Assembly: GCA_021299955.1 (NCBI GenBank) | Contig: JAJTFQ010000019.1 | Location: forward strand, 1 to 51,102 | Direction: 5' to 3' | Length of the DNA stretch: 51,102 bases | Origin: Chitinophagaceae bacterium | GTDB taxonomy: Bacteria; Bacteroidota; Bacteroidia; Chitinophagales; Chitinophagaceae | Shown here: one piece after another, positions 15,811 to 33,685 of the stretch | Layout: every line of letters begins with the position of its first letter | Numbering within the stretch: the first letter of the stretch is position 1 | The notes under the pieces: model-generated | What the model was told of the DNA's origin: nothing | What the model saw: the letters and a program-made list of their open reading frames with translations, nothing else | Database searches by the model: none | Position numbers and translations under genes: made by a program

Positions 15811-17541
15811 ATGGCCGGATGGCCACTTACCGCTAACCACGAAACACCAGACATGACACAACGTGAATACACTGTGATGGATCTGGAGCGCATACATCTT
15901 ATCTATTTTGTCATCAACCGGGCATTGGAGATCACAGATAGCGGAAAGTTGATGACCCAGCGCGTCCTGCTGGGAGCTAATCTCAGGGAAGCCTTTGATG
16001 TGCTGCGTCCAAAGTTCAGGCGGGAACTGGAATTCGATGATATCGCCTCCTTTCGGGATCGCATATTTGTCCTGCGGGCAAAGCCCGGTGAATCCAAGAC
16101 TTTTTTCAGGGGCGAATTCGTGCGTGGAGACGATCCGGACACACTGACATTTTACGGCATTTCATGGTCTCCCACAGAGGCGGACCTCCGGGATATGCAA
16201 AATGGCTCAGTTTACGCGGTGAACGGTTTCTCGAAAGGGACCGATGCAGAAAATGTCGGGGGTAATGAGCTCTTCCGCATGCGATTTGACAGTTTCAGTC
16301 AGATAGATGCGTCTTTGCTGAGGGAAAAACAGCGATTTGAAGCGCTGTTCGATTACTCCACGATGGCCATCCTGGTGTCCGATGACACTGGAGGCATCGT
16401 ACTGGCGAACCCGATGGCCAAACATACCTTCGGTTACGAACCGGAGGAGTTCATCGGTCGAAAGGTGGAGGATTTCATGCCGGAGCGTTTCCGTAGAGGG
16501 CATGTCGGAAAGCGCGAGCACTTCCACAAACGACCCCAAAACCGAACCATGGGTCCGGGGCTGGACCTATATGCCCAGCGAAAGGATGGCAGTGAGTTTC
16601 CGGTCGAGATCAGTCTTGGACATTATGCAACGGAGGAAGGCAGATTCGTTATTGCCTATGTGATCGATATTACCAGGCGGAAAGAGATCGAACAGGCCAT
16701 CCTGCGTCAGCAAGAGGAAATGGCAAGGGCTCATGCCGAGATCGAGACGCTCAACGAAGAGTTGGAAGCCAAGGTGGAACAGCGCACCCGACAATTGCAG
16801 GAGACCATGGAGATCCTGGAGAAATCGCGTGACGATCTCGAACAAGCCCTCAGCAAGGAAAAGGAATTGAGCGATCTGAAAACACGTTTCGTGTCCATGG
16901 CCTCGCACGAATTCCGCACCCCCCTCAGCACCATCCTCTCCTCCGCGTCCCTGGTTGCTAAATATATACTTTCAGAAGAGCAGGATAAGCGGGATAAACA
17001 CATTCAACGGATCCGTTCTGCCGTGAGCAACCTCACCGACATTCTCAACGAATTCCTGTCGATCGGAAGGCTTGAAGAAGGAAAGATCCAGGTGAATGTT
17101 TCCGAATTCAATCTCAGGGATCAGGCTCAACTCGTATGCCATGAGATGCAGACGATCCTCAAGCCCGGCCAGCGCATACAGTATGCGCACCAGGGTTCGA
17201 TGATGGTCAAATTGGACCTCTCGATGCTCCGTAATATTTTCATCAATCTCATTTCCAACGCCCTTAAATTTTCTCCGGACAACGGACTCATCGAAGTGGA
17301 AACCGAGGTGAATGAGCAACAAATTCTCATTTCCGTCCGCGATCATGGCATCGGTATTTCTGAAGAAGATCAAAAACATTTGTTTGAACGCTTTTTCCGC
17401 GGAAAGAATGCCACCAATATTCAGGGAACGGGGTTAGGTTTACACATCGTTTCAAAATATGCGGAACTGATGGGTGGCTCCATTTCGGCGGAAAGCGCAT
17501 TGGATGAGGGAACCAGATTCATCGTAAAATTCAGGATATGA
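15811..17541 (+). CDS. PAS-domain sensor histidine kinase with haem-NO-associated-like N terminus
   Basis: Soluble sensor kinase of 576 residues without membrane spans. Residues 28-165 resemble the H-NOX-associated (HNOBA) type of dimerisation/sensor domain (GANLREAFDVLRPKF, TLTFYGISWSPTEADLRDMQ). A PAS domain follows (about 175-290), then a coiled coil (295-355). Next is a HisKA domain with the phospho-accepting His in SMASHEFRTPLS (H366), then an HATPase domain with N box NLISNALKFSPD, G1 DHGIGI and G2 GTGLGLHIV. Starts at Met15 (15853) or Met23 (15877) are also possible. It overlaps the response regulator gene by 4 bp (ATGA), a clear cognate pair. The N-terminal domain call is tentative; the kinase call is secure. 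Confidence 0.9.
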   Translation: MAGWPLTANHETPDMTQREYTVMDLERIHLIYFVINRALEITDSGKLMTQRVLLGANLREAFDVLRPKFRRELEFDDIASFRDRIFVLRAKPGESKTFFRGEFVRGDDPDTLTFYGISWSPTEADLRDMQNGSVYAVNGFSKGTDAENVGGNELFRMRFDSFSQIDASLLREKQRFEALFDYSTMAILVSDDTGGIVLANPMAKHTFGYEPEEFIGRKVEDFMPERFRRGHVGKREHFHKRPQNRTMGPGLDLYAQRKDGSEFPVEISLGHYATEEGRFVIAYVIDITRRKEIEQAILRQQEEMARAHAEIETLNEELEAKVEQRTRQLQETMEILEKSRDDLEQALSKEKELSDLKTRFVSMASHEFRTPLSTILSSASLVAKYILSEEQDKRDKHIQRIRSAVSNLTDILNEFLSIGRLEEGKIQVNVSEFNLRDQAQLVCHEMQTILKPGQRIQYAHQGSMMVKLDLSMLRNIFINLISNALKFSPDNGLIEVETEVNEQQILISVRDHGIGISEEDQKHLFERFFRGKNATNIQGTGLGLHIVSKYAELMGGSISAESALDEGTRFIVKFRI

Positions 17542-18596
17542 AGACCATACTGCTGATCGAAGACAATCTGGAAGTGCGGGAGAATACCGCGGAGATCCTG
17601 GAACTGGCCGGCTACCTTGTGGTGACCGCGGAGAATGGCAAGATCGGTGTGGAGGCCGCCATGCAGCAGAAGCCCGACCTGATCATCTGCGACATCATGA
17701 TGCCTGTACTCGATGGTTATGGTGTGCTGCACCTGTTGCGCAAGAATGATCAGTTGCAGAACATCCCCTTCATCTTTCTGACGGCCAAGGCCGAGCGCAC
17801 CGACTTCCGAAAGGGCATGGACATGGGCGCGGATGACTACATCACCAAGCCCTTCACGGACATCGAACTGCTGAACGCCATCGAGCGAAGATTGCAAAAG
17901 GTCGAATTGCTGAAGAAAGAATATGCGGCGGATATACATGGTCTGCACGACTTCATGCGGGATGCCGACCGGGAGGATGCGCTGAAGGCACTGTCAGAAG
18001 ACCGCAATATCAATCATTACAAGAAGAAACAACTCATCTACTCCGAAGGCAACCATCCACTCCGCTTATATTTTGTGCAGAAGGGTAAGGTAAAAACCTT
18101 CAAGTCGAATGACGACGGAAAGGAACTCACCGTAGGGCTCTTTCGGGAGGGCGACTTCTTCGGTTACATTTCGCTGCTGGAGAACACGGTCTACCGCGAA
18201 ACCGCAGAGGCCATGGAGGAGTCCCAAGTGGCGATCATTCCAAGGGACGAATTCGAATCCCTCATCAATGAAAATCCGGAAGTGGCCAGGCGATTCATCA
18301 GGATGCTGGCGAGCAATGTGTCGGAGAAGGAGGACCAACTGATCGGACTGGCCTACAACTCCCTCAGGAAAAGAGTGGCAGATGCCCTTATGACCCTGCA
18401 GCGCAAGTATCATCGCTCGAATGCAGAACCCTTCTCCATCCACATTTCGCGGGAGGATCTGGCGAACATCGCCGGAACGGCCACGGAGTCCCTGATCCGG
18501 ACACTCAGCGATTTCCGCGCCGAAAAACTCATCGACATCCGCGATGGCTACATCGTTATCCTCAATGAGAAGAAACTGGTCGGCATGCTCAACTGA
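17538..18596 (+). CDS. Receiver domain fused to Crp/Fnr-type DNA-binding protein
   Basis: Response regulator of 352 residues. The receiver domain (1-120) has acidic E8/D9, phospho-acceptor D52 (LIICDIMMP), T82 and K104. The linker (120-150) is followed by a cyclic-nucleotide-type beta barrel (155-265) and a Crp-type winged helix (275-345). The barrel lacks the usual cAMP-site Glu (GDFFGY in place of GExxGE), and there is no Fnr-type N-terminal Cys cluster, so phosphorylation rather than cAMP or Fe-S oxygen sensing probably controls it. The recognition helix TATESLIRTL keeps the Glu-x3-Arg pair (E317, R321) with which Crp and Fnr read TGA/TCA half-sites. Candidate regulator of the cbb3 promoters in this window. 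Confidence 0.92.
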   Translation: MKTILLIEDNLEVRENTAEILELAGYLVVTAENGKIGVEAAMQQKPDLIICDIMMPVLDGYGVLHLLRKNDQLQNIPFIFLTAKAERTDFRKGMDMGADDYITKPFTDIELLNAIERRLQKVELLKKEYAADIHGLHDFMRDADREDALKALSEDRNINHYKKKQLIYSEGNHPLRLYFVQKGKVKTFKSNDDGKELTVGLFREGDFFGYISLLENTVYRETAEAMEESQVAIIPRDEFESLINENPEVARRFIRMLASNVSEKEDQLIGLAYNSLRKRVADALMTLQRKYHRSNAEPFSIHISREDLANIAGTATESLIRTLSDFRAEKLIDIRDGYIVILNEKKLVGMLN

Positions 18597-18659: not shown

Positions 18660-19049
18660 TCATTGAAGGGTGGAGGACAGGTAGTTATTGAATTCGTATC
18701 GCAGGCTGTTGAACTCTTTTTCCAGGTAATGGATCTGGCCGCGGAGCTGCTGCTGACGATCTCTCATCGCCGAGTCCGGTGAAAAGTTCTGGTGACGGAA
18801 TCTATGGGTCAGATCCCGTTCCTGTTCCTGTACATCGTGCCGGAGTTCATCCAGGAACTCATCTTTGATGATGAACTGGTTCTGAAAATGTTCGGCCTGC
18901 GCCAGAAAATCACGATCCGTCGTGCCATCTACAACCTCCGCCAACCGGTTCTTCAGAAAACTATTTTCCTGCCTGAAGAAATCGATGGATCTCAACCAGG
19001 TCATGTTCTCATGATGATACTGCTCCAATATGTTCACCAGCGCGTTCAC
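18660..19049 (-). CDS. Unknown coiled-coil protein in the cbb3 neighbourhood
   Basis: Predicted protein of 129 residues, highly charged and helical, with heptad-like regions (FRQENSFLKNRLAEVV; KDEFLDELRHDVQEQERDL; RDRQQQLRGQIHYLEKEFNSLRYEF). No signal peptide, membrane span or Cys motif is present; I do not recognise the family. The start codon is GTG, overlapping the stop of a 35-codon ORF (GTGA), so translation may be coupled. It lies 3' of the cbb3 operon on the same strand and has its own candidate promoter at 19203-19271 with the same operator layout as ccoS and ccoI. A role linked to respiration is therefore inferred from regulation only. Confidence 0.7.
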   Translation of the reverse strand: MNALVNILEQYHHENMTWLRSIDFFRQENSFLKNRLAEVVDGTTDRDFLAQAEHFQNQFIIKDEFLDELRHDVQEQERDLTHRFRHQNFSPDSAMRDRQQQLRGQIHYLEKEFNSLRYEFNNYLSSTLQ

Positions 19050-19202: not shown

Positions 19203-19271
19203 CAAATGTAAGATTTGGGATGTGCAAATTCTGTAATTTCTGTCAGACAAGAAACTGATATATATCAGTTT
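19203..19271 (-). promoter_or_regulatory. Promoter P3 with tandem Crp/Fnr-type sites (one degenerate)
   Basis: Minus-strand -7 element TACATTTG (19210-19203). The proximal half-conserved site GTAATTTCTGTCAG is at 19233-19246, and the distal site CTGATATATATCAG at 19255-19268 lies inside a 20 bp perfect palindrome (19252-19271). The gap from -7 element to proximal site is 22 bp and the centre-to-centre distance of the sites is 22 bp, as at ccoS and ccoI. The distal palindrome overlaps the stop codon of the upstream safE gene. The proximal site has TAA instead of TGA in one arm, so occupancy there is less certain. Confidence 0.55.
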
Positions 19272-19985: not shown

Positions 19986-20435
19986 TCACGGTTTGGCTGA
20001 AAGGATGTTTTCCGTGTAATAATCGATGCCATCACAGGTCCATGTGGTCTTGACGACGGACATGCCTGTTCGTTTACGGTTAGAGGGCATCACCAATTGT
20101 TGAAGACCATCGCGGGTGTCGATGTCCACCTTTACATCCAGGGATTCATCGGCGGGATAATAAACCCAAACCTTACCTGTGATCATCTTTCCGGCCTGCT
20201 CTTCCGGAAATCGGATGAAGAGGCTGTCGCCCGAGACCATGACAGTGAGTTTGCCGGGCAGCGCATCTGCTCGTCTCGACTGATCTATCCGCTCCTGATA
20301 CCTGATCTCCTGTTCATAATAGTCGGGTGTGACGAGGTCGATCTTCTGACGGCTCGACTGCATGACCAGAAAGAGGATGCCGGCTACAAAGAGCAGGTAT
20401 GCGATGGTGATCTTGGTTCCCCAGTTGAATTGCAT
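19986..20435 (-). CDS. ccoH: FixH/CcoH family cbb3 oxidase assembly protein
   Basis: Protein of 149 residues with one N-terminal membrane span (residues 9-26, ITIAYLLFVAGILFLVM) followed by the family's conserved VTPDYYEQEIRYQERID segment and a periplasmic beta-rich domain. FixH/CcoH proteins are needed for assembly or stability of cbb3 oxidase. It sits between ccoG and the SafE-like gene with gaps of 12 bp and 7 bp, consistent with an operon. Confidence 0.88.
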   Translation of the reverse strand: MQFNWGTKITIAYLLFVAGILFLVMQSSRQKIDLVTPDYYEQEIRYQERIDQSRRADALPGKLTVMVSGDSLFIRFPEEQAGKMITGKVWVYYPADESLDVKVDIDTRDGLQQLVMPSNRKRTGMSVVKTTWTCDGIDYYTENILSAKP

Positions 20436-20447
20436 GGTTGGTTGGTA

Positions 20448-21869
20448 TTATCGCATCGGACCCATGAAGGTCACGTTCACGTTTTTGATATTGATGCCTT
20501 TTTCATACACGCCGATCCGGATGGGTGTGCGGCGCTGGCGGATCTCCGCGGGCTCCACCCTGATGATGAAGGTGGCGGTCTTGTACCCTTCCTTTTCCAC
20601 CACGATGCTTCCACCTGCCACTTCGATCTCCCCCCGGATGCCTTCGAGCTGAAGGGTGATGGGAATGTCTTCACGTGTTTTATTGGCGAGTCGGGCGTTG
20701 TACACATTTGCGATGCGGCCGTCGGGCAGTTCCCGGAAGACCGTGCCCGAGGTCCGAAGGATGGTCACGTCCACGTCATCCCGGCTGGCCAGCATGAAGG
20801 CAAGGGCACCTGCGAGTGAAAGCAGTACAAAGGAGTAACCGACGATGCGTGCATTCAGCCGGGGTTTTTCACCCTTCACCACGTTTGCCTCGGAGGCGAA
20901 GCGGATGAGGCCGGTGGGTCTGTTGACCGCTGTCATGATCTCATCACAGGCATCGATGCAGGCTGTGCAGTTCACGCATTCCAATTGCGTGCCGTTGCGG
21001 ATGTCGATACCGGTCGGACAAACCCGTACACAGGCGGCACAGTCTACACAGTCGCCATGCGTCTGTTCCGTCTTCCGGGCCTTTCCCCGGGGTTCGCCGC
21101 GTACATAGTCGTAGGCCACCACGATGGAATTCTTGTCGAGCAATACGCCCTGCAGTCGTCCGTAAGGGCAGACCACGATACATACCTGCTCCCGAAACCA
21201 GTAATAGACAAAGAAGAAAACCGTCGTAAAAATGGATAGGGCGACAAAGGTTCCGAAATGCTGATCGATGCCTTCCGTCATATATCGCTTCACCTCATCC
21301 ATGCTGATCAGATAAGCCATGAAGAAGTGGGCGATCAGGAAGGACATCAGCCAGAAAACGATGATCTTGACGGCGCGTTTCCTGATCTTGTATGCATTCC
21401 AGGGCATCTCCCGCAGCTGTCGCTGCCTGATATGGTCGCCATCGAGCCAGTATTCGATCTTCCGGAATACCATCTCCATGAAAATGGTCTGCGGACAGGC
21501 CCATCCGCAGAAGACCCTTCCGAAGACCACGGTGAAAAGGATGACGAACACCACAAAGGTGAGCATCCCAAGCATGAAGATGAAAAAGTCTTCCGGTCCG
21601 AAGATCTGACCGAAGAGAATGAATTTCCGTTTCAGGATATTGATCATGAAAATCGGCTCCCCTTTTATCTTAATGAAAGGAAGTCCGAAAAAGAGGATCA
21701 GATAAAGGATGCTGGCGATGGTTCGCTTGTTGTAGAGGCTGCCTTTTGGCTTTTTCGGGGATATGTAGTTCCTGGAGCCTTTTTTATCGATGGTGGCCAC
21801 GGAGTCGCGGAAGGATTGATCCATCTGCGACTTTTTGGCCAGGGCTTCCGCTGTGTCCCGGTGATACAT
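20448..21869 (-). CDS. ccoG: Cytochrome c oxidase accessory protein CcoG
   Basis: Membrane ferredoxin-like protein of 473 residues that takes part in cbb3 assembly, probably as a cupric reductase. It has membrane spans near residues 50-70, 95-120, 170-190 and 210-230. Between and after them are the Cys motifs CGWACPQTIFMEMVFRKIEYW, CIVVCPYGRLQG and a double 4Fe-4S ferredoxin motif CVDCAACVRVCPTGID and CVNCTACIDACDEI. The C-terminal domain (from about residue 340) is an Ig-like FixG-type fold following another span. It follows ccoP after 76 bp containing a strong hairpin. Confidence 0.95.
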   Translation of the reverse strand: MYHRDTAEALAKKSQMDQSFRDSVATIDKKGSRNYISPKKPKGSLYNKRTIASILYLILFFGLPFIKIKGEPIFMINILKRKFILFGQIFGPEDFFIFMLGMLTFVVFVILFTVVFGRVFCGWACPQTIFMEMVFRKIEYWLDGDHIRQRQLREMPWNAYKIRKRAVKIIVFWLMSFLIAHFFMAYLISMDEVKRYMTEGIDQHFGTFVALSIFTTVFFFVYYWFREQVCIVVCPYGRLQGVLLDKNSIVVAYDYVRGEPRGKARKTEQTHGDCVDCAACVRVCPTGIDIRNGTQLECVNCTACIDACDEIMTAVNRPTGLIRFASEANVVKGEKPRLNARIVGYSFVLLSLAGALAFMLASRDDVDVTILRTSGTVFRELPDGRIANVYNARLANKTREDIPITLQLEGIRGEIEVAGGSIVVEKEGYKTATFIIRVEPAEIRQRRTPIRIGVYEKGINIKNVNVTFMGPMR

Positions 21870-21945: not shown

Positions 21946-23058
21946 TTATTTCGAGAACGGTTCCCCCTGCGGTTCCTTCGGATTGGCGGGCTTTGTGCCT
22001 TTCATAGATTTTACGAAGGAGACCAGGTTTTTCATTTGAACGGGGTTGTACACGGACTGCCATGACTGCATCCCTTTTTCGGGATACCCCAGTTTGATCG
22101 TTTTATAGATATCGTTCATACCGCCGCCGTGTATCCAGTGATCATCTGTCAGATTCGGACCGATGCCTCCGCCGCCGTCCGTGGCATGACAGGCTACACA
22201 GCTTTGATTGTAGAGGGCTTTACCGGCAGCGATGCCCGCTGCATCAGCCAGGGTGACATTGTTCTCATCCACCAGGTCTTTTGTTTTCGCCTTGTACAAT
22301 TCTTCCTGTTTCCGGCCTTCGGCCATCTCGGCCGCATACTCCTGTTCCGGATTCTTGCCGGTTCCGAAGAGGTGGAAGTTGAAAACATAGATGAAAGCTG
22401 CAACGACCGTTACATAGAAGCCATATTTCCACCAGGGCGGCAAAGCATTGTCGAGCTCACGGATGCCGTCGTAGTCGTGGTCGAGCAAGACATCCGCTTC
22501 CTGTTCCACGGGAATGGCCCGCGTAAAAAAGTGCCGGTCGAGTCGGTTCCACCATTCGACCCAGCGGGAGGATATCTCCGTCTCCTCCACGGGCTTCGGC
22601 TCGTCCAGACCCATCAGGGCGCGATAGGTACGCCGGGCCATGAAGGCCAGGAAGAGGATGACGATGACTTCCAGCACAATTACGCCGGACAGCATGTAGA
22701 ACTCGAGTTCAGACAGTCCGCCGTAGTTGTTTGTTTGTACCATGGTGGCGACGGTTTCTTCTGCCTGCCCCACCGCCGTGGTGTTGACCCCGAAGAGTCC
22801 GATCAGGAGGATGGTGATGTTTGCCGCTTTCCGCTGTTTGTCTGTCAGATGCCGGCTGAAGATCAGCAAAGACTGGCCCAACCCCCAGATGACCGCCAGC
22901 AGGATGATGGCCGTGAAGAAAAGCATGATCTCAAGCCAGTTGGTGTCGGGCCTGCTTGATGGAGCAACTCCGCCACCCTTTGCCAGGGCAGATGCACCGG
23001 GCAGGAGCAGCAGCACTGCTGTTTTTTTCAGGTATGCGTAACCGTTATGTAGTGACAT
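21946..23058 (-). CDS. ccoP: cbb3-type cytochrome c oxidase subunit CcoP (monohaem)
   Basis: Subunit III of cbb3 oxidase, 370 residues. It begins with a hydrophobic signal-like segment and two more spans (about 43-62 and 105-125) in an N-terminal extension. The FixP N-terminal span follows (YGFYVTVVAAFIYVFNFHLF, around residue 213), then a single cytochrome c domain with haem site CVACH (C287) and the downstream GYPEKGMQSW axial Met region. Proteobacterial CcoP usually has two haem c sites; one is usual in Bacteroidota. It transfers electrons to CcoO/CcoN. Confidence 0.92.
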   Translation of the reverse strand: MSLHNGYAYLKKTAVLLLLPGASALAKGGGVAPSSRPDTNWLEIMLFFTAIILLAVIWGLGQSLLIFSRHLTDKQRKAANITILLIGLFGVNTTAVGQAEETVATMVQTNNYGGLSELEFYMLSGVIVLEVIVILFLAFMARRTYRALMGLDEPKPVEETEISSRWVEWWNRLDRHFFTRAIPVEQEADVLLDHDYDGIRELDNALPPWWKYGFYVTVVAAFIYVFNFHLFGTGKNPEQEYAAEMAEGRKQEELYKAKTKDLVDENNVTLADAAGIAAGKALYNQSCVACHATDGGGGIGPNLTDDHWIHGGGMNDIYKTIKLGYPEKGMQSWQSVYNPVQMKNLVSFVKSMKGTKPANPKEPQGEPFSK

Positions 23059-23266: not shown

Positions 23267-25426
23267 TCAATGGTTTTGTGCGGTCTGTTCCTTTCCGATA
23301 TCCGTTCCGAGGCGTTGCAGGTAGGCGATGACGGCAATGATCTCTTTGTTGGGTGGTGTTTTGATCCCATCCTTTGCGAGATTCGACTGAATGTTTTCTG
23401 CCTGTTTCATCAGGTCATCGTTTGCCTGTGCGTCATAACCCTCCGGATAAGGGACACCCAGGCGTTGCATTGTGCGGATCTTGGCCGGGGTGCTGGCGGT
23501 ATCGAGTTCGTGCTCGAGCATGAATGAGTAAGCCGGCATTAAGGATCCGGCGGACAGGGCCTGCGGGTCGTCCATGTGGTTGTAGTGCCAGCTGTCGGAT
23601 TTCCGGTTGTTGCCCACGCCTTCGCGGGCGAGGTCCGGCCCCGTGCGCTTGGAGCCCCACTGGAATGGGTGATCGTACACAAACTCTCCGGCCTTGGAAT
23701 ATTCTCCGTACCGGGCAGTTTCGGAACGGAACGGACGGATCATCTGCGAATGGCAGGTGTAGCATCCCTCACGGATATAAATATCTCGACCCTGCAGCTC
23801 CAGCGGTGTGTAAGGTTTGACACTGGCGATCGTCGGTACATTGGATTTGATCAGGAAGGTCGGGATCATTTCCACCGCGCCTCCGATCAGGATGACCACA
23901 AGGGTCAGCACCAGCAGTTGCACGGGCCTTCGTTCGATCCAGCGGTGCCAATGCTCTGAACCGTGATGCCTGTAAGTTTCTTCAAGGGCCGGAGCAGCGG
24001 CCTCTTCTTCAGCGAGCAGCGATCCCTTCGCACAGGTCTTGAACAGATTGTATACGCCGAGGATCGATCCGAGGAGGAACAGGGTTCCGCCGAATGCACG
24101 CATCGCATAGAATCCCTTCAGCTGGGTGACGGTTTCGAGGAACTGATATTTAAGCTGCCCTGCTTCGGTAAAATCCTTCCACATCAGGCTCTGCTTGAAA
24201 CCGGCCCAGTACATCGGGATGGCATAGAACAGGATGCCCAGGGTGGCGATCCAGAAATGCATGTTGGCGAGTTTGCGCGAATACAACTCGGTTTGGAAGA
24301 TCCTCGGCAGCAGCCAGTAGAGAATGCCGAAGGTCAGCATCCCATTCCATCCCAGGCCACCGACGTGCACGTGGGCAATCGTCCAGTCGGTGAAGTGACT
24401 GATGGCGTTGACATTCTTCAGCGACAGCATCGGCCCTTCAAATGTGGACATGCCGTAAGCGGTCACCGCCACGACCATGAACTTCAGGATGACATCTTCT
24501 CGCACCTTGTCCCAGGCTCCACGCAGGGTCAGCAAGCCGTTGATCATGCCGCCCCAACTCGGGAAGATGAGGGTGAAACTGAATACGACACCGAGCGACT
24601 GCGCCCAGTTGGGCAAGGAGGTGTAGAGCAGGTGATGCGGTCCGGCCCAGATATACAGAAAGATCAGTGCCCAGAAATGTATGATCGAAAGCCGATAGGA
24701 GAATACGGGACGATTGGCTGCTTTCGGCATGAAATAATACATCAGCCCGAGGTAGGGCGTGGTCAGGAAGAACGCCACGGCATTATGGCCATACCACCAT
24801 TGTACCAGCGCGTCTTGTACGCCGGCGTACGCTGAATAACTTTTCAGGAAGGAGGCGGGGAACTCAATGGAATTGACGATGTGCAGGACCGCTACCGTCA
24901 CGAAGGTGGCGATGTAGAACCAGATGGCCACGTACAGATGTCGTTCCCGGCGTCGGAGGATGGTCCAGAACATATTGACCCCGAAAACCACCCAGATCAA
25001 GGCGATGGCAATATCGATCGGGAGTTCGAGCTCGGCGTATTCCTTGCCTGTGGTCAGGCCAAGCGGAAGGGTTAGTGCCGCCGCCACAATGATCAGCTGC
25101 CAACCCCAGAAATGGATCCGGCTCAGCAGATCGCTGGCCATGCGGGTCTTCAGCAAGCGTTGCAGGGAATAGTAGACGCCCATGAAAATGCCGTTGCCGA
25201 CAAAAGCGAAGATCACCGCATTGGTGTGCAACGGCCTCAAACGACCGAAGGACAGGCCGATGGTCTCCTTGCCGACGGCGATCGCAGAGAGATTCCATTC
25301 CGGAAATACTAACAGCAGGGCGACCCAAACGCCCACCAGCATGCCAACGATCCCCCAGATCATGGTGGCGTAGGCGAAATTCCGGACGATCCGGTTGTCA
25401 TAACTGAAATTCTGGACTTGCATCAC
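23267..25426 (-). CDS. ccoN: Fused cbb3 oxidase subunits I and II (CcoNO)
   Basis: Protein of 719 residues joining catalytic subunit CcoN (about 1-490, twelve membrane spans, with HTNAVIFAFVGNGIFMGVYY, WYGHNAVAFFLTTPYLG and the H-V-H pair of TIAHVHVGGLGWNGM as metal and haem ligands) to subunit CcoO. The CcoO part has one span near 500-520, haem-c site CYTCH (C555) and axial Met in LMPAYSFM. It is the terminal oxidase core that reduces oxygen with high affinity at the cytoplasmic membrane. The N-O fusion is common in Bacteroidota. The start overlaps ccoS by 4 bp (ATGA). Confidence 0.96.
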   Translation of the reverse strand: MMQVQNFSYDNRIVRNFAYATMIWGIVGMLVGVWVALLLVFPEWNLSAIAVGKETIGLSFGRLRPLHTNAVIFAFVGNGIFMGVYYSLQRLLKTRMASDLLSRIHFWGWQLIIVAAALTLPLGLTTGKEYAELELPIDIAIALIWVVFGVNMFWTILRRRERHLYVAIWFYIATFVTVAVLHIVNSIEFPASFLKSYSAYAGVQDALVQWWYGHNAVAFFLTTPYLGLMYYFMPKAANRPVFSYRLSIIHFWALIFLYIWAGPHHLLYTSLPNWAQSLGVVFSFTLIFPSWGGMINGLLTLRGAWDKVREDVILKFMVVAVTAYGMSTFEGPMLSLKNVNAISHFTDWTIAHVHVGGLGWNGMLTFGILYWLLPRIFQTELYSRKLANMHFWIATLGILFYAIPMYWAGFKQSLMWKDFTEAGQLKYQFLETVTQLKGFYAMRAFGGTLFLLGSILGVYNLFKTCAKGSLLAEEEAAAPALEETYRHHGSEHWHRWIERRPVQLLVLTLVVILIGGAVEMIPTFLIKSNVPTIASVKPYTPLELQGRDIYIREGCYTCHSQMIRPFRSETARYGEYSKAGEFVYDHPFQWGSKRTGPDLAREGVGNNRKSDSWHYNHMDDPQALSAGSLMPAYSFMLEHELDTASTPAKIRTMQRLGVPYPEGYDAQANDDLMKQAENIQSNLAKDGIKTPPNKEIIAVIAYLQRLGTDIGKEQTAQNH

Positions 25427-25614
25427 TTGTGTATTTGATTGTTTTGGGGTGAGTGATCGTTGGAAGGGGGAGGAGCGGCATCGTCGAACAACATGCGTAC
25501 AGAAGGTGTGTAGTCATCGTCATACTGACCATTGCGCACAGACCAAAGGAAGGCGACGAGGAAGCCACCGGCGATCAGGATGCTGGCGGTGATGAGGACG
25601 ATGATCACACTCAT
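25423..25614 (-). CDS. ccoS: cbb3 oxidase maturation protein CcoS
   Basis: Small membrane protein of 63 residues: one N-terminal span (VIIVLITASILIAGGFLVAFLW), then the conserved WSVRNGQYDD segment and an acidic, Pro/Asn-rich tail. CcoS is needed to insert haem b and copper into CcoN. It is the first gene of the operon and overlaps ccoN by 4 bp. The predicted transcription start lies only about 16 nt upstream of its ATG. Confidence 0.9.
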   Translation of the reverse strand: MSVIIVLITASILIAGGFLVAFLWSVRNGQYDDDYTPSVRMLFDDAAPPPSNDHSPQNNQIHK

Positions 25615-25634: not shown

Positions 25635-25700
25635 CAAAACTATCCTCAGCTTCCCGGGCGGTCCATGACGTGGGTCAAAATCGGGGATGATTCACGTCAT
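25635..25700 (-). promoter_or_regulatory. Promoter P1 of the cbb3 operon with tandem Crp/Fnr-type sites
   Basis: Minus-strand -7 element TAGTTTTG (25642-25635) fits TAnnTTTG. The proximal operator ATGACGTGGGTCAA is at 25665-25678 and the distal ATGATTCACGTCAT at 25687-25700, both with a TGA-N6-TCA core. The gap from -7 element to proximal site is 22 bp and the site centres are 22 bp apart (two helical turns). If transcription starts about 5 nt past the -7 element, the sites centre near -41.5 and -63.5, the classical class II activator position. No -33 TTTG is present at 19-23 bp, as expected for an activator-dependent promoter. Confidence 0.75.
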
Positions 25701-25933
25701 GGAATAGTCAATAGATATAAAATATTTATTGATATCCATCTGATAAAATATAATTAAAAATCAATATATAATTTTTCTGTCCCATGCCTGGTGTGCGAAC
25801 CGGCTGCGCCTGTGCTTGGGTAACGGAGACAGGGTGCCGGTCACTTCTGCCGTTCTTCCCGAATTTTCATCCGCTCATCTTGCCCATCGCCCTGTGGTCC
25901 CCATCTTTCTTGTGGGACTTCATGAGTTTTAAT
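25701..25933. other. AT-rich intergenic spacer between divergent promoters
   Basis: This is the remaining part of the 347 bp gap between ccoS and the divergent membrane-protein gene. The left part (25701-25772) is strongly AT-rich, unlike the surrounding DNA. No ORF with coding character, RNA gene or terminator was recognised in it. Confidence 0.5.
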
Positions 25934-25956
25934 TACTTTGTATTTCAAAGTACTTT
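25934..25956. promoter_or_regulatory. Inverted-repeat operator of the membrane protein/regulator operon
   Basis: TACTTTG-TATTT-CAAAGTA is a perfect 7 bp inverted repeat with a 5 bp centre (25934-25952). It overlaps a second perfect palindrome AAAGTACTTT (25947-25956). It ends 5 bp before the start of the membrane-protein gene, whose operon encodes a winged-helix regulator, so it is a likely autoregulatory operator. Confidence 0.65.
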
Positions 25957-25961
25957 ATATA

Positions 25962-26606
25962 ATGAACATGTCAACGGAACAGGAACATCTGGAGTCGATC
26001 CGCGAAATGCGGAACCTGATGGAAAGGTCAACCCGGTATTTGTCGGTCAGTGGACTGGCGGGGGTCATTGTGGGCTTCATTGCGCTCGGTGGTGTGGCCT
26101 GTCTGCTGACCAACATGGACATTCCGATCGGGCGACCGGTTTCCTTCAATGAATTGGCCGCAGCGGGCGGTCCGCAGGCTTCATTGATCAATGAGCGGAT
26201 CCTGACCATGGCAGCCGGAGTGTTTTCGCTCTCTTTGATCGTGGAGATCGGACTGGCCTACCGGAATGCACGTAAACTGCGTTTGCCGCTCTGGGATGCT
26301 ACGGCGCGACGGATGATCACAGCCCTGGGGATTCCGATCCTGGGGGGCGGGGTCTACTGCCTGAGCCTGATCCAGGCCGGACAGCCGGATGGTCTGGCCC
26401 CGGCTTCTCTGATCTTTTACGGACTGGGTCTGGTGCATGCCGGCCGGCATGCGGTACCGGATGTCGGTCGACTGGGACTGGCCGTGTTCGTCTCCGGTCT
26501 GACGGCTTCCTTCTTTCCGTCGCTGGGCGTCTATTTCTGGGCGTTTGGATTCGGCATACTTCATATCATCTATGGCATCACCATCCACTTCAAACATCAG
26601 CGGTGA
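25962..26606 (+). CDS. Unknown membrane protein, first gene of a regulator operon
   Basis: Protein of 214 residues, start MNMSTEQEHL (a start two codons later, at 25968, is also possible). A charged N-terminal helix (EQEHLESIREMRNLMERST) precedes about six hydrophobic spans. Proteins of this outline, placed ahead of a small winged-helix regulator, occur in Bacteroidota, but I know no function. The codon at 25938 lies in the operator and is not the start. Its stop overlaps the next start (GTGA). Confidence 0.78.
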   Translation: MNMSTEQEHLESIREMRNLMERSTRYLSVSGLAGVIVGFIALGGVACLLTNMDIPIGRPVSFNELAAAGGPQASLINERILTMAAGVFSLSLIVEIGLAYRNARKLRLPLWDATARRMITALGIPILGGGVYCLSLIQAGQPDGLAPASLIFYGLGLVHAGRHAVPDVGRLGLAVFVSGLTASFFPSLGVYFWAFGFGILHIIYGITIHFKHQR

Positions 26607-26905
26607 AAGGATTCATAGCGGATTTCAACAAGGCCTTCGAAAGCCGGATCCGATTGGGCATCATGTCGATCCTGGTGGTGAACGATGCGGTAGATTTCGC
26701 TTCGCTCAAGGTGCAACTTCAGGTCACGGACGGAAACATGGCGAGCCATCTTTCCGCGCTGGAGAAGCTCGGGTACGTAGAGGTAAGCAAGCAGTTCATC
26801 GGCCGAAAGCCGAATACTTCCTATGCCGCGACCGACGCCGGACGCCTGGCCTTTGCCACACATCTTGATGCGCTGGAAAAACTGATCGGACGCAGGGAAA
26901 CATGA
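26603..26905 (+). CDS. Small winged-helix transcriptional regulator
   Basis: Regulator of 100 residues consisting of little more than one winged helix: FNKAFESRIRLGIMSILV, then FASLKVQLQVTDGNMASHLSALEKLGYVEVSKQF, and the wing GRKPNTSYAATDAGRLAFATH. The TDGNMASHLSALE pattern is typical of the MarR/ArsR-like DUF24-free group often annotated simply as transcriptional regulator in Bacteroidota. It starts at GTG, overlapping the preceding stop. Probably represses its own operon at the ACTTTG-type palindrome upstream (inference from context). Confidence 0.85.
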   Translation: MKGFIADFNKAFESRIRLGIMSILVVNDAVDFASLKVQLQVTDGNMASHLSALEKLGYVEVSKQFIGRKPNTSYAATDAGRLAFATHLDALEKLIGRRET

Positions 26906-26939
26906 TTCCATTTCAAATACACAGACAAAAACAACCCAT

Positions 26940-28156
26940 ATGACTCAGGATCTAACGTCCGGACAGCCCGATCTCAGGGAATCCATCTTGCAACACATCG
27001 AGGAGCCGGCAGTACTCGAACGCCTTTACAGAGTTGATGCCACGGCTTTTGGCAAGACCTTCATGCAACTTTATCCGATGATCAAGGACCAGGTCATCGC
27101 CCGGGTCTGGTACGAACGACTGAACCATCGGAGTACATCTGCAGTCAGCAGCATGCGTCGCGACTGGATCTTCATCTTCATCGCCACCCTGGCGGCAGGC
27201 GGGCTGATGAAGTTTCCGGATCTTTTTGGTTTCAGGGATGATGTGTTCTATCCCCGTAACATCGCCTTCGCTGTCTTTCCGATGCTATCCGCCTTCATTG
27301 TCTGGCGCAATGGTCTGAGGATGTCTGCATATCTGCTGCCGCTGGTCGTAACGGTGCTGGCCGCCATTTATATCAATGTGCTGCCGACAGATGGAACGCG
27401 TGATTCTGTTATGCTGGCCTGCATCCATCTCCCATTGCTCTTATGGGCTGTTCATGGTTATGTGTTCACGACGGATGCGGGGCATGCCCACTCCGCCCGC
27501 ATCAGCTACCTGCGTTATAATGGCGACCTTTTGGTGATGACAGCCCTGATCACCATTGCCGCTGTCATCTTTTCGATGATCACCTTCGGGCTGTTCAACA
27601 TGATCGGGATGGACATTGAAAAGGTCTGGGAATCGTACATCATCGTTTGGGGTGCGCCGGCCGTTCCGATCCTGGCCAATGTCCTGGTCAGGGAAAATCC
27701 TTCGCTGGTGAATCGCATCTCTCCGTTGATGGCTAAGATCTTCACTCCCCTGGTACTGGCCATGCTGCTGATCTTCCTCGGCACTATGGCCTTCACGGGA
27801 CGGAATCCCTACCAGGATCGGGAGTTCCTGCTCATTTTCAACGTACTGCTGATCGGGGTCTGATCCTGCTGTTTACGCTCTCCGTGCTGACCATCATCGT
27901 CAACGGCATCGCTCTTTCCGCCATCAGTTTCAGATTGGTGGAGTATGGACTTACACCGAACCGACTGGCTGTACTTGCTGGAAATCTGCTGATCATGACC
28001 CATTTGCTGATCGTTACGCGCCGCTTATTCCTGGTCGTGAACCGTAAACAATCCGTTGAGGATGTGGAAAGGGCCATCGCGGTTTTCCTGCCCGTATATG
28101 CTTTGTGGACGCTCGTTGTCGTCTTCGGTTTCCCGCTGTTCTTTGGCTTCAGATGA
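26940..28156 (+). pseudogene. Frameshifted DUF4153-like membrane protein gene
   Basis: The frame from 26940 codes for a multi-span membrane protein of 307 residues and stops at 27861-27863 directly after LLIGV. The frame one base back continues from that point without a stop to 28156 (LILLFTLSVLTIIVNG... ending FGFPLFFGFR), with matching hydrophobic spans. Adding one G to the run GGGG at 27855-27858 joins the halves as I-G-G-L-I-L-L-F, giving about 405 residues. The gene is therefore either a one-base homopolymer deletion or a sequence error; programmed frameshifting is unlikely since no slippery heptamer is seen. The family resembles DUF4153 proteins found after small regulators. Function unknown. 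Confidence 0.75.
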
Positions 28157-28174
28157 CGCCTGTTGCATACAATG

Positions 28175-28210
28175 ACGGCCGTTCCGGAACTCTCCGGGGT
28201 GGCCGTTTTT
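28175..28210 (+). terminator. Terminator after the frameshifted membrane protein gene
   Basis: ACGGCC pairs with GGCCGT, enclosing a second small stem (CCGGA with TCCGG), followed by five T residues ending at 28210. It lies 18 bp after the stop at 28156. The next 187 bp to the ccoI stop hold nothing recognised. Confidence 0.75.
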
Positions 28211-28397
28211 CATTATCTCCCGTCGCCAACCGGCCTGCTAAAATATTTAGCCATTTTCAGGGATTCATTGCGGAATGATTAAGAGGTTGAAACCACATCT
28301 TTGTAATGTTACCGCGAGGGAATGACCCAGGGTGTGATGCTGAAGGGCCGAAGTTCATTGTGATATCGAAAAAAGTATCTTGTCAGCAGACCTGGCC

Positions 28398-30842
28398 TCA
28401 GCCTTCCAACCCCAGTCTCCGGGCGGTCAGGGTCGAAAGCACGGTCACGAATACCACGATGCTAATGGAACTCGCGGGCATCAGGATGGCGGCGATCAAC
28501 GGTGATAGGTCACCCTGGATGGCAAATCCCAATCCCACGAAGTTGTAGAGGATCGACAGGACGAAGCTGGCGGCTACGACGTTTTTACCCCGCCGGGCGA
28601 ATTTCACCAGTGCGCCGAGTTTCGAAACCTGTTCTCCTTCGAGGATCCCGTCACTGGCGGGGGAGAACATGCCGGTGTGATCCGAAACGGCGATGCCTAC
28701 ATCGCTTTGGCGCAGTGCACCTGCGTCGTTGAGCCCATCTCCGAGCATGATGACCTGTCTGCCGGCTGCCTGCAGTTTGCGGATGAACTCCAGTTTTTCC
28801 TGAGGATCGCTGCGGAAGCGCATCCGCGTGTCCGGTCCGATCAGGTGGGCGAGGTTTTTGCGTTCGTGGTCATGGTCTCCGCTGAGGACGAAGAGTCCGA
28901 AACCCTTGCTGCGCAAGGTGTCCGCCATTTCGGGGAGTCCGTTCCGGTACTCGTTGCCGATCTGGAAGTTGCCGATCAGGTCTCCGTTGAGGGCGATATG
29001 GATGCGGCTTCCGTCTGTCCGGAAGTTTTGATGTTGTACCCTGTCTCCTTCGGCTGTGAAGGATGCCGACCCGATCTTCACCAATTTGCCGTCGATGGAT
29101 CCTTCCACACCGCGGCCGGGATATTCGTGGAATGATGATACTTCTCGGTTGGAATCTGCTGCCAGACCTTCCAGTTCGGCGGCCAGGCGCCGGCTCAGTG
29201 GGTGTGCCGACTGTCGGGCCAGGGAGGCGATGCGTCCCAGGTCAGCGGCATCTGGCATCCTGCCTTCGAAAAGGACCTTTGTGTTTTGACTGTGGGTGAG
29301 GGTGCCGGTCTTGTCGAATACGACCGCATCGGCCTTGCCGATCGATTCGATGACCGATGCGTTTTTAAGGTAGAGGCGGTTTCTGCCGAAGATGCGTACC
29401 ATGTTGCCATTGGTGAAGGTGGCGGAAAGCAGCAGCGAACAGGGGCAGGCCACGATCAGGATGCTGGTGACAACATGCCAGACCTTCGAAGGATCGTGCA
29501 TCTGCCAGTAGATCGCTGAACCGATGGCGATCGAAAACAGTATGTAGGTGAAATAACGGCTCCAGGGGTGGATGAAGGATCTGTGCACGTGCTTTTCATG
29601 GTGGAACACCTCGTTGTTCCACAACTCGGTGATGTGGCTGCCGGAGGCGGGTCTGATCACTTCGAGTTCGATGGCGGACCCGCATTGCCTGGCACCGGCG
29701 TAGATCAGTTCGCCTTTCCGTTTGGTAACGGGTGTCTGTTCGCCGGACACGAAACTGTAGTCGATGCTGGCCGTTGCCGACATCAGCACGGCGTCCGCCG
29801 GCACCAGTTCCTGATTGCGGACCCGGATGCGGTCATGTCTGGCGAGCCGGCTGACAGGGATGTCTTCCTCCCCGTTGCCGGTGATGCGGGTAACCCCCAG
29901 CGGAAAATAGGAACGGTAATCCCGGTCGAAGGAAAAGGAGTCGTAAGTCATGTGCTGGAACCAGCGTCCGATGAGCATGAAGAATACTATGCCGCTCATT
30001 GAATCCAGGTAGCCCGGACCGGTTTGCGTGAGGATCTCATAGATACTGCGACCGAAGGTGACGATGATGGCCAGTGCAATGGGGGCGTCTATGTTCAGCC
30101 ATCGCTGCCGCAGGCCCTTCCAGGCAGACACAAATATCTCCGACGCGCTGAAAAACACGACAGGCAGCGACAAGGCGAGGTTCAGCCATTCGAAGACCCG
30201 ATCGAGACCTTCAGCACCAGTTTCCCCGCCGGAAAAGTATTCCGGGAAGCTGAGCATCATGATGTTACCGAAGCAGAAGCCGGCGACGCCGATGCGGTGT
30301 ATTTGTCCGCGGTCGACCTTTCGGCTGGTCTTTTCCACGGCATCCTGCAAACTGATGTGCGGTTCGTAGCCGATGAATGCGAGGAGTTCGACGATCTTTT
30401 TTAATCCGGTGAGGGACGGATCGAAGACGATCAGCACTTCCTTGCGTTGGAAATTGGCGCGGGAATGGATGATGCCGGGCTGGATGCGGGGCAGGTGTTC
30501 GAGCAACCAGATACAGCTGGCGCAATGCATGGAGGGGAGGTGAAAGAGCACGTGCGACTGCCTGCCATCTGTAAAGCGGACGAGTTTCGCTGTCACTTCC
30601 GGGTCGTCGAGGTAATCGAAACGACCATGCTTGAATCTGCCTTTGGCCTGGATCCCGGGGCTCTTTTCCAGGTCATAATACGCGCACATCCCGTTCTCTT
30701 CGAGGAGCAGGTAGACCTGTCTGCAGCCTTCGCAGCAGAAGGCTTTGTGTTCATGACGGATGCGTCCATCACAGGATTCACCACAATGATGGCAGGTTGT
30801 GCGTGTTGCGGGTGGAGTTGTACTTAGGGTCGTGGCAGACAT
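28398..30842 (-). CDS. ccoI: Copper-translocating P-type ATPase CcoI
   Basis: P1B-type ATPase of 814 residues needed to supply copper for cbb3 oxidase. The N terminus (17-40) carries Cys pairs CHHC, CCEGC that may bind metal. The HMA domain follows with MHCASC (107-110), then eight membrane spans with the ion-path motif CPC (466-468), the phosphorylated Asp in DKTGT (D510) and the hinge motif GDGLND near residue 715. Start MSATTL at 30842 is chosen because the longer frame to 30941 runs into promoter P2. Unlike in many genomes, it is not adjacent to ccoNOP but lies 3 kb away beyond three opposite-strand genes, with a matching promoter. Confidence 0.93.
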   Translation of the reverse strand: MSATTLSTTPPATRTTCHHCGESCDGRIRHEHKAFCCEGCRQVYLLLEENGMCAYYDLEKSPGIQAKGRFKHGRFDYLDDPEVTAKLVRFTDGRQSHVLFHLPSMHCASCIWLLEHLPRIQPGIIHSRANFQRKEVLIVFDPSLTGLKKIVELLAFIGYEPHISLQDAVEKTSRKVDRGQIHRIGVAGFCFGNIMMLSFPEYFSGGETGAEGLDRVFEWLNLALSLPVVFFSASEIFVSAWKGLRQRWLNIDAPIALAIIVTFGRSIYEILTQTGPGYLDSMSGIVFFMLIGRWFQHMTYDSFSFDRDYRSYFPLGVTRITGNGEEDIPVSRLARHDRIRVRNQELVPADAVLMSATASIDYSFVSGEQTPVTKRKGELIYAGARQCGSAIELEVIRPASGSHITELWNNEVFHHEKHVHRSFIHPWSRYFTYILFSIAIGSAIYWQMHDPSKVWHVVTSILIVACPCSLLLSATFTNGNMVRIFGRNRLYLKNASVIESIGKADAVVFDKTGTLTHSQNTKVLFEGRMPDAADLGRIASLARQSAHPLSRRLAAELEGLAADSNREVSSFHEYPGRGVEGSIDGKLVKIGSASFTAEGDRVQHQNFRTDGSRIHIALNGDLIGNFQIGNEYRNGLPEMADTLRSKGFGLFVLSGDHDHERKNLAHLIGPDTRMRFRSDPQEKLEFIRKLQAAGRQVIMLGDGLNDAGALRQSDVGIAVSDHTGMFSPASDGILEGEQVSKLGALVKFARRGKNVVAASFVLSILYNFVGLGFAIQGDLSPLIAAILMPASSISIVVFVTVLSTLTARRLGLEG

Positions 30843-30891
30843 CGGCTGGGTATAATGGTATCGAACCGGCTTTTCGCTGAAGCCTTGGATA

Positions 30892-30957
30892 CAAAAATAC
30901 CCTTGGGGTGTGGGTTCGTCTCTGACCGGGGTCAATCGCATGCATGACCCGCGTCAG
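30892..30957 (-). promoter_or_regulatory. Promoter P2 of ccoI with tandem Crp/Fnr-type sites
   Basis: Minus-strand -7 element TATTTTTG (30899-30892). The proximal operator CTGACCGGGGTCAA is at 30922-30935 and the distal ATGACCCGCGTCAG at 30944-30957; both have the eight-base core TGAC-N4-GTCA. The gap from -7 element to proximal site is 22 bp and the centres lie 22 bp apart, identical to promoter P1 of the cbb3 operon. The sites fill the space between the LOG gene stop and ccoI. The predicted leader is about 45 nt. Confidence 0.75.
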
Positions 30958-33126: not shown

Positions 33127-33140
33127 ATGACGGCGGTCAG
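33127..33140. promoter_or_regulatory. Single Crp/Fnr-type palindrome between terB-like gene and crtZ
   Basis: ATGACGGCGGTCAG has the same TGAC-N4-GTCA eight-base core as three of the four sites at promoters P1 and P2. It sits in the divergent region between the TerB-like/Usp operon and crtZ. No -7 element stands at the 22 bp gap seen elsewhere, so which side it serves, if any, is open. Confidence 0.4.
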
Positions 33141-33178: not shown

Positions 33179-33685
33179 ATGACCATCATCTATTTCATCG
33201 CCGTCCTGCTGCTGACCTTCTTCGCTATGGAGGGCATCACCTGGGCTACGCACAAATGGGTGATGCATGGATTCCTCTGGTACCTGCATCGCGACCATCA
33301 TCAGGTGGAGCCCGGTTTCTTCGAGAAGAACGATGCCTTCTTCGTGATCTTCGCGATCCCGAGCATGCTGCTCATCATGTTCGGCAGCCAGGACGGGATG
33401 TGGTGGATGCAGGCCATTGGCTTTGGGATCATGGCCTATGGTTTCGCCTATTTCCTGGTACATGATGTGATCATACACCAGCGCTTCAAATGGTTCTCCC
33501 GAAGCCGGAACACTTATGTGCGGGCCATCCGCTGGGCGCACAAAATGCATCACAAACATCTGAGTAAGGAGCAAGGTGAGAGTTTCGGGATGCTGTATGT
33601 TCACCGGAAATATTGGGAAAAAGTGCGCCGCGATCAGAAGCTGATGGCTGCGAGGAAGGTCGAATACGCCCCCGAAACGGAGTAG
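33179..33685 (+). CDS. crtZ: Beta-carotene 3-hydroxylase CrtZ
   Basis: Membrane di-iron hydroxylase of 168 residues in the fatty-acid hydroxylase superfamily that adds the 3-OH to beta-ionone rings. The four His clusters of CrtZ are present: HKWVMH (22-27), HRDHH (36-40), HDVIIHQRF (around 98) and HKMHHKH (around 121-127), between hydrophobic spans. Length is typical. It lies ahead of the lycopene cyclase gene on the same strand. Confidence 0.93.
   Translation: MTIIYFIAVLLLTFFAMEGITWATHKWVMHGFLWYLHRDHHQVEPGFFEKNDAFFVIFAIPSMLLIMFGSQDGMWWMQAIGFGIMAYGFAYFLVHDVIIHQRFKWFSRSRNTYVRAIRWAHKMHHKHLSKEQGESFGMLYVHRKYWEKVRRDQKLMAARKVEYAPETE

Follow-up and report, generated by a model that had tools for sequence, protein, structure and literature searches.

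A fixed-spacing tandem Crp-type operator module precedes the cbb3 oxidase and copper pump genes of a Chitinophagaceae bacterium and points to a receiver-Crp regulator

In a 51,102-nucleotide stretch of DNA from a Chitinophagaceae bacterium (GenBank assembly GCA_021299955.1, contig JAJTFQ010000019.1, positions 1 to 51,102; hereafter the window), the operon for the cbb3 oxidase (ccoS-ccoNOP) and the gene for its copper ATPase, ccoI, are preceded by the same promoter module, in which two TGA-N6-TCA palindromes of the Crp type stand in tandem at an exact distance from each other and from a Bacteroidota -7 element, TAnnTTTG. The module is conserved with this spacing across the order and the class, stands upstream of recurrent groups of genes, and is linked to and co-occurs with a gene encoding a fusion of a response-regulator receiver to a Crp-type protein, which adjoins a gene for a PAS histidine kinase. 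Judged from these sequence relationships, the receiver-Crp protein is the best candidate reader of the sites.

Results

Two operons of the window share one promoter module

Upstream of ccoS-ccoNOP (promoter P1) and of ccoI (P2), both on the minus strand, the layout TGA-N6-TCA / N10 / TGA-N6-TCA / N23 / TAnnTTTG is present with 0 mismatches, and a third copy (P3) departs from it at one position. The elements, located by sequence and module scan, are as follows.

25635..25642, minus strand: P1 -7 element, TAGTTTTG
25666..25677, minus strand: P1 proximal Crp-type site, 12-bp core TGACCCACGTCA on the minus strand, centre about -41.5
25688..25699, minus strand: P1 distal Crp-type site, 12-bp core TGACGTGAATCA on the minus strand, centre about -63.5
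30892..30899, minus strand: P2 -7 element, TATTTTTG
30923..30934, minus strand: P2 proximal Crp-type site, 12-bp core TGACCCCGGTCA on the minus strand, centre about -41.5
30945..30956, minus strand: P2 distal Crp-type site, 12-bp core TGACGCGGGTCA on the minus strand, centre about -63.5
19203..19267, minus strand: P3, module copy with 1 mismatch (in the proximal core); proximal site 19234-19245, distal site 19256-19267, -7 element 19203-19210

The paired sites lie 22 bp apart from centre to centre in P1 as well as in P2, and the gap between proximal core and -7 element is 23 in both when 12-bp cores are counted (22 with 14-bp palindromes), which confirms the palindromes and the exact 22-bp spacing proposed in the original prediction. 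That prediction had also called the two promoters identical; this holds for the layout, which is free of mismatches in both, and does not hold for the letters, which differ. P3 is located upstream of the gene for a 129-amino-acid (aa) protein, which converges on the receiver-Crp gene. A further perfect module of the same genome, on another contig (G000:C112:1932-1996), precedes a gene resembling the glutamate synthase small chain, the reading frame of which is broken in that contig. The same type of gene stands behind modules in three other genomes (G029, G036 and G038), and its G038 relative contains Fer4_20 and Pyr_redox_2 domains.

These matches greatly exceed chance. At up to three mismatches the whole module has four matches in the window against 0.03 expected, one of the four being the P1 pair read on the opposite strand with two mismatches, and none of 100 shuffled sequences reached four. 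The tandem alone, at up to one mismatch, occurs three times against 0.20 expected (0 of 100 shuffles reached three). The stricter palindrome TGAC-N4-GTCA occurs seven times, a number attained in 0 of 100 shuffles; three of the seven fall in the four P1 and P2 sites, as had been noted, and the chance expectation of about one per window is borne out by the shuffled value of 0.91. A divergent promoter reading outward from P1 was considered and rejected, as only a poor -7 element with two mismatches is available. Separately, another of the seven TGAC-N4-GTCA palindromes stands alone at 33128-33139; it lies 39 bp upstream of the plus-strand gene at 33179-33685 and has no partner at spacing 22 at up to one mismatch.

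The spacing is exact and predicts an activating position

We examined the spacing in 80 named receiver-Crp loci from Chitinophaga, Niastella, Dyadobacter, Emticicia, Larkinella, Rufibacter and many uncultured Bacteroidota. When both gaps were varied on a grid (4-17 by 18-28), a single peak appeared at N10/N23 with 85 matches, while no other cell exceeded 7. Perfect tandems with gaps from 0 to 34 gave 150 counts on both strands at N10 and at most 10 at any other gap. Among 42 promoters selected only for a perfect proximal site and a -7 element, a distal palindrome (up to one mismatch) was found at exactly 22 in 30, and every other spacing from 12 to 49 occurred at most twice.

In Flavobacterium psychrophilum, TAnnTTTG has been mapped at -12 to -5 (PMC9723704). 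If the element occupies the same position here, the site centres would fall exactly at -41.5 and -63.5, in agreement with the placement originally predicted, and the proximal site would have the centre of a class II Crp-dependent promoter, with the start position taken from the F. psychrophilum mapping.

The composition of the sites was read from 173 of 183 distinct sites, 10 having been removed because their flanks were short or their identity exceeded 70%; the fixed positions are selected by the pattern, so that information comes only from the remaining ones. Both cores favour C or T at position 4 and A or G at position 9. The centre of the distal core is A-rich and asymmetric (A in 49-57% at core positions 6-9), a feature not shared by the proximal core at positions 6-8. 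The base before the core is T in 11% of the sites for the distal and in 39% for the proximal core, and the base after the proximal core is A in 4%; identity with an anaerobox promoter (TTGAT-N4-ATCAA) was rejected on these outer positions, which are not conserved.

The module is conserved across the order and the class

At up to one mismatch, 183 of the 248 genomes examined in the order and 182 of the 295 in the class contain the module; a reversed-pattern control yielded 1 and 2 matches, respectively. At up to two mismatches, 60 relatives gave 294 matches in 49 genomes, against 12 for the reversed control.

Absence of both palindromes and of their spacing from orthologous promoters had been set in advance as a result that would speak against the prediction, which withstood this test. 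Scored as an exact centre spacing of 22 with up to one mismatch in 12, within 500 bp upstream, the pair is kept at 19 of 26 ccoN loci (the window's own included), absent from six, and one locus was too short; among 26 ccoI loci it was found in 12, 11 of them mismatch-free, with two loci too short. Seven of the 12 ccoI pairs sit 375-443 bp upstream. Presence of the pair at ccoN follows the regulator: 18 of the 19 genomes have a receiver-Crp gene, the exception (G003) being 60% complete, and of the six without the pair, five (G047, G019, G054, G059 and G055) lack that gene and one (G058) has it. In G054 the pair stands upstream of ccoI rather than ccoN.

Two further observations concern the distribution of the module. 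In four genomes a single operator pair is flanked by -7 elements on both sides (G176:C8:12646/12677; G201:C10:333138/333169 and 378970/379001; G346:C9:95760/95791; G425:C1:1323458/1323489), so that each palindrome would be at -41.5 for one promoter and at -63.5 for the divergent one. One genome of the class Bacteroidia (G498, 5.4 Mb) carries 50 module matches at up to one mismatch, about ten times the mean of 4.9 for fusion-bearing class genomes, and its contig C56 has at least eight modules plus a receiver-Crp gene.

Recurrent groups of genes follow the module

A downstream open reading frame was assigned by a simple gene caller for 179 of the 183 distinct modules in the fetched loci, and groups took their names from similar window genes or from Pfam matches of one representative. 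The recurrent groups are ccoS (24), ccoNO, ccoI and Hsp20 (14 each), universal stress protein and PAS kinase (13 each) and the 129-aa helical protein (12); DoxX (5), YgaP-like membrane proteins (5), a ScdA/hemerythrin protein and a GltD-like oxidoreductase (3 each) and ccoG (1) form smaller ones. The ccoNO group probably hides an intervening ccoS too short for the gene caller. Loci had been picked partly around cco genes and the regulator, and the group sizes therefore do not describe a genome-wide regulon. Two provisional labels were discarded: a gene called NrdD-like encodes an ATP-cone/Mrr-type protein, and a 165-aa protein called hemerythrin-like has no Pfam match. The 13 kinase genes of relatives have a module upstream, unlike the kinase-regulator operon of the window, where the window scan found none at up to three mismatches.

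The module co-occurs with and is linked to a receiver-Crp gene

The regulator to which the original prediction pointed, and its neighbour, are encoded next to each other on the plus strand.

15811..17541, plus strand: histidine kinase, PAS domain FixL-like; stop codon overlapping the regulator start
17538..18596, plus strand: receiver-Crp regulator (receiver, cyclic nucleotide-binding fold, Crp helix-turn-helix (HTH)), proposed reader on the basis of domain searches and co-occurrence

Genomes were sorted roughly into three regulator groups by the E-value of one query (below 1e-50, receiver-Crp; up to about 5e-28, stand-alone Crp-like match only; above, neither), the third of which may include genomes with a divergent Crp. 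In the order, the module at up to one mismatch is present in 151 of 169 genomes with receiver-Crp, in 28 of 39 with a stand-alone Crp-like match only and in 4 of 40 with neither; it is found in none of the 22 genomes with neither regulator that are at least 90% complete. The class outside the order gave 117 of 136, 47 of 82 and 10 of 68 (286 genomes, module in 174; nine shared with earlier samples were set aside), with a mean of 4.9 modules per genome in the presence of the fusion versus 1.5 with a stand-alone match only. P-values for such tables ignore phylogeny, and kinship among the genomes makes them too small.

The same association is seen within the genus of the window. In a scan of 23 genus genomes at up to one mismatch, in which the control had no match, at least one module was present in 15 of 15 genomes checked with a full receiver-Crp and in two of seven without (one each in G023 and G033); one with a partial receiver-Crp match (G030) has one module. 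The single modules of G023 and G033 may be chance occurrences because no Crp-type HTH match was found in either genome. At up to two mismatches and at least 90% completeness, G030 excluded, the mean is 6.9 modules with receiver-Crp (n = 18) versus 0.75 without (n = 4).

Modules also cluster around the regulator gene. In 27 receiver-Crp genomes with full site lists (G207 excluded; listed regulator copies only), 57 of the 133 listed sites are no more than 20 kb away from the gene, and 21 of the 27 genomes have at least one such site; for the first 20 genomes, 53 of 119 sites are this close versus 1.6 expected under uniform placement. The fusion is also present in 11 genus members that have no close ccoNO (G001, G002, G006, G009, G020, G025, G027, G031, G032, G037 and G042), seven of which have a module at up to one mismatch no farther than about 1 kb from the fusion gene; in G031 it appears at two mismatches. 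Linkage and the order and class counts together bear out the receiver-Crp protein as the regulator to consider.

The regulator is a Crp-family response regulator with an adjoining kinase that has a FixL-like PAS domain

The regulator belongs to the Crp/Fnr superfamily (PF00027, PF13545 and PF00325 above cut-off) and to the response regulators (PF00072, E 5e-28). D9, D52, T82 and K104 of the receiver, together with the stretch GTATESLIR, are invariant in 13 sequences, and the receiver looks functional, with a conserved phospho-acceptor site. Assignment to better-known regulators failed in each case. The protein is not FNR proper, having a single Cys (C51) and hence no N-terminal Cys cluster for a [4Fe-4S] centre, and scoring 76 bits against the Fnr cut-off of 228. 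Its Crp-type output, in place of a LuxR-type HTH, excludes FixJ; its receiver, and 80 bits against a cut-off of 300 with the Caulobacter-type FixK model, exclude FixK. A cAMP-activated CRP was rejected at 90 bits against an equivalog cut-off of 266, and what we take to be the cAMP cassette Arg looks, by eye, replaced by E or D in the regulator alignment. A structure model of the protein was of modest quality (predicted local distance difference test score (pLDDT) 73, predicted template modelling score 0.45) and was left unused.

The kinase contains PAS, HisKA and HATPase_c domains. A kinase like it is present in 74 of the 80 named loci, in each of which its best match stops 0-239 bp short of the regulator; two of the other six loci have the contig end at this point. 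Fourteen PDB matches of the PAS domain at E ≤1e-3 are to FixL, DosP/YddU and one multi-sensor kinase, the best being FixL 1d06 (E 9e-14). At the position that we take to be the proximal heme-ligand His of FixL, the window kinase has His, as do 62 of 65 aligned relatives (Q in two, K in one; first plus-strand PAS match in 70 loci, five of them uncovered). Based on these similarities, the signal of the kinase is likely to be oxygen or redox. Its N-terminal part (window 15811-16300) has a weak HNOBA (heme NO binding associated) match (E 2e-5).

Genes of the two operons and their neighbours

The remaining genes concerned were assigned as follows.

25423..25614, minus strand: ccoS, first gene of the cbb3 operon (FixS Pfam, ccoS NCBIfam above cut-off)
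23267..25426, minus strand: fused ccoN-ccoO (domain searches)
21946..23058, minus strand: ccoP (domain search)
20448..21869, minus strand: ccoG (domain search)
19986..20435, minus strand: ccoH (FixH; domain search)
28398..30842, minus strand: ccoI copper ATPase, start revised from 30941
18660..19049, minus strand: gene for the 129-aa protein, which follows P3 and converges on the receiver-Crp gene (no family assigned by Pfam or NCBIfam; three helices predicted to form a bundle)

The longest ccoI reading frame, starting at 30941, runs into its own promoter. The ATG at 30842-30840 is probably the start and is preferred because all compared ccoI relatives but the closest (G003) align from residue 25 or later. 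With the transcription start implied by a -7 element at -12 to -5, the ccoI leader would be about 45 nt with the revised start and that of ccoS (start 25614) about 16 nt. The 129-aa protein is modelled as a three-helix bundle (pLDDT 91), for which a fold search returned generic helical bundles, none at E ≤0.001; its relatives are likewise downstream of a module in several genomes. A frameshift may have split one membrane protein gene into the adjacent plus-strand reading frames 26940-27863 and 27884-28156.

Discussion

We consider it probable that P1, P2 and P3 form one regulon, in which low oxygen would act through the kinase on the receiver-Crp protein and two dimers of the latter would activate transcription from -41.5 and -63.5. 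The kinase, with its FixL-like PAS domain and a signal that is probably low oxygen or redox, would phosphorylate the receiver of the adjoining regulator. Two receiver-Crp dimers would bind side by side, 22 bp or about two helical turns apart and hence on one face of the DNA, the proximal dimer at the class II position of -41.5, over the -33 region, and the distal one at -63.5. The bound dimers would activate sigma-A transcription from TAnnTTTG, and the high-affinity cbb3 oxidase and the copper pump CcoI would be switched on jointly. In relatives without the fusion, stand-alone Crps with a near-identical recognition helix would probably read the same sites. The proposal that one activator co-regulates the oxidase and its copper pump is thus supported by our data, in a form in which binding, phosphorylation, the oxygen signal, activation and cooperativity are what we infer from sequence, and some stand-alone Crps are likely readers too.

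Several observations weigh against this reading. Receiver-Crp genomes without a module at up to one mismatch amount to 18 of 169 in the order and 19 of 136 in the class, and five of the ten class genomes that carry a module with neither regulator are at least 90% complete. Of the listed sites, 76 of 133 are not near a regulator gene. At the position that we take to be the distal Arg of FixL, the window kinase has Leu, and relatives have Met (27), Arg (16) or Leu (11) among 65. The distal site at spacing 22 is absent from 12 of the 42 promoters with proximal site and -7 element; it is therefore common and not obligatory. Finally, 28 of 39 genomes in the order and 47 of 82 in the rest of the class carry modules although they do not encode the fusion, which is therefore not essential, and other Crp-type HTH proteins, some with an FNR-like E..SR helix, are encoded in all nine genus genomes scanned.

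The last two points would fit a stand-alone Crp/Fnr protein as the main reader everywhere, with the fusion as a mere neighbour or secondary player. Stand-alone Crps of seven genomes (G014, G051, G054, G105, G116, G204 and G019) do carry GTATE or GTSTE with the ..IR helix, and those of G014, G054 and G204 with GTATE..IR adjoin ccoI. Such proteins probably read the same sites; since the recognition helix is common to the fusion and some stand-alone Crps, either form is expected to bind. As the main reader everywhere, however, a stand-alone protein is unlikely: among 21 further Crp loci, none of the 14 helices read was of the GTATE type (GTTKEQVSR/K, NSSREV.SR, GIRVETVIR), five fusion-less genus members with other Crp types (G004, G007, G010, G012 and G028) have no module at up to one mismatch, the mean module number of 4.9 with the fusion falls to 1.5 with a stand-alone match only, and the fusion gene keeps its nearby module in seven of the 11 genus members that have no close ccoNO.

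Alternatively, the two sites might serve separate proteins or roles, the proximal one binding the activator and the distal one a second Crp-family protein or tuning by repression. The A-rich, asymmetric centre of the distal core, the coexistence of several Crp types and the promoters devoid of a distal site are in line with this, but the rigid spacing and the preferences common to both cores at positions 4 and 9 make it quite improbable; the fit of both cores to the same six fixed bases is partly a matter of pattern selection. Chance palindromes or a repeat element without regulatory role deserve practically no credence: single TGA-N6-TCA cores are indeed frequent by chance, yet the shuffled windows and the reversed-pattern controls rule this out as a full account, and, unlike in a repeat, the spacing is fixed while the letters outside the fixed positions diverge freely.

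The receiver-Crp regulon as we propose it resembles the rhizobial FixL-FixJ-FixK cascade (fixNOQP, fixGHIS) in its FixL-like PAS kinase, response regulator, Crp/Fnr-family part and target operons, and differs from it in that receiver and Crp are united in one protein, no FixJ-type HTH step intervenes and the sites are paired. By sequence, the system would work like FixL-FixJ-FixK, yet its regulator falls outside the FixJ, FixK, FNR and CRP definitions tested. With the FNR/FixK anaerobox the module shares the inner TGA-N6-TCA core and an activating position near the promoter, but neither the outer T/A pair nor a regulator with a Cys cluster. At E. coli CRP class II and class III (tandem) promoters, the activator at -41.5 is joined by a further upstream dimer, with variable tandem spacing. 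A dimer at -41.5 with another upstream would be common to the module and these promoters, whereas the module keeps its 22-bp spacing constant in many genes and families and has the Bacteroidota -7 in place of a -10 element.

Two fixNOQP operons on plasmids of R. leguminosarum 3841 each carry one anaerobox, as do both of its fixGHIS operons (PMC7888657). FixLJ and FnrN/FixK have been treated as separate systems (PMC4999443). The hybrid hFixL-FxkR-FixK and the M. xanthus NmpRSTU systems are likewise two-component controls of a low-oxygen or oxygen-use regulon, but employ other response regulators, and the parts available of their descriptions do not mention a receiver-Crp fusion. In F. psychrophilum, cbb3 is reported to be induced under oxygen limitation, the regulator not being named in the part available (PMC9723704). 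A full-text search of open-licence papers, in the portions accessible, returned no description of the module or of a receiver-Crp regulator of cbb3.

Because the control background is close to zero (1 and 2 matches in 248 and 295 genomes), the regulon should be predictable in uncultured members, and the module ties a regulator to it and leads to a spacing claim that is exact and testable. A further idea, possible but on balance doubtful, is that in Bacteroidia the FixL-FixJ-FixK cascade has collapsed into a kinase and a receiver-Crp fusion, with the paired operator as its counterpart on the DNA side. Phosphorylation would join receivers between adjacent dimers, and tetramers would assemble on no operators but those with the exact 22-bp spacing. 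If true, such a collapsed cascade with a tetramer on a paired operator would make the response to oxygen set in at a sharp threshold, and the low-oxygen regulon of the whole class could be read from DNA alone.

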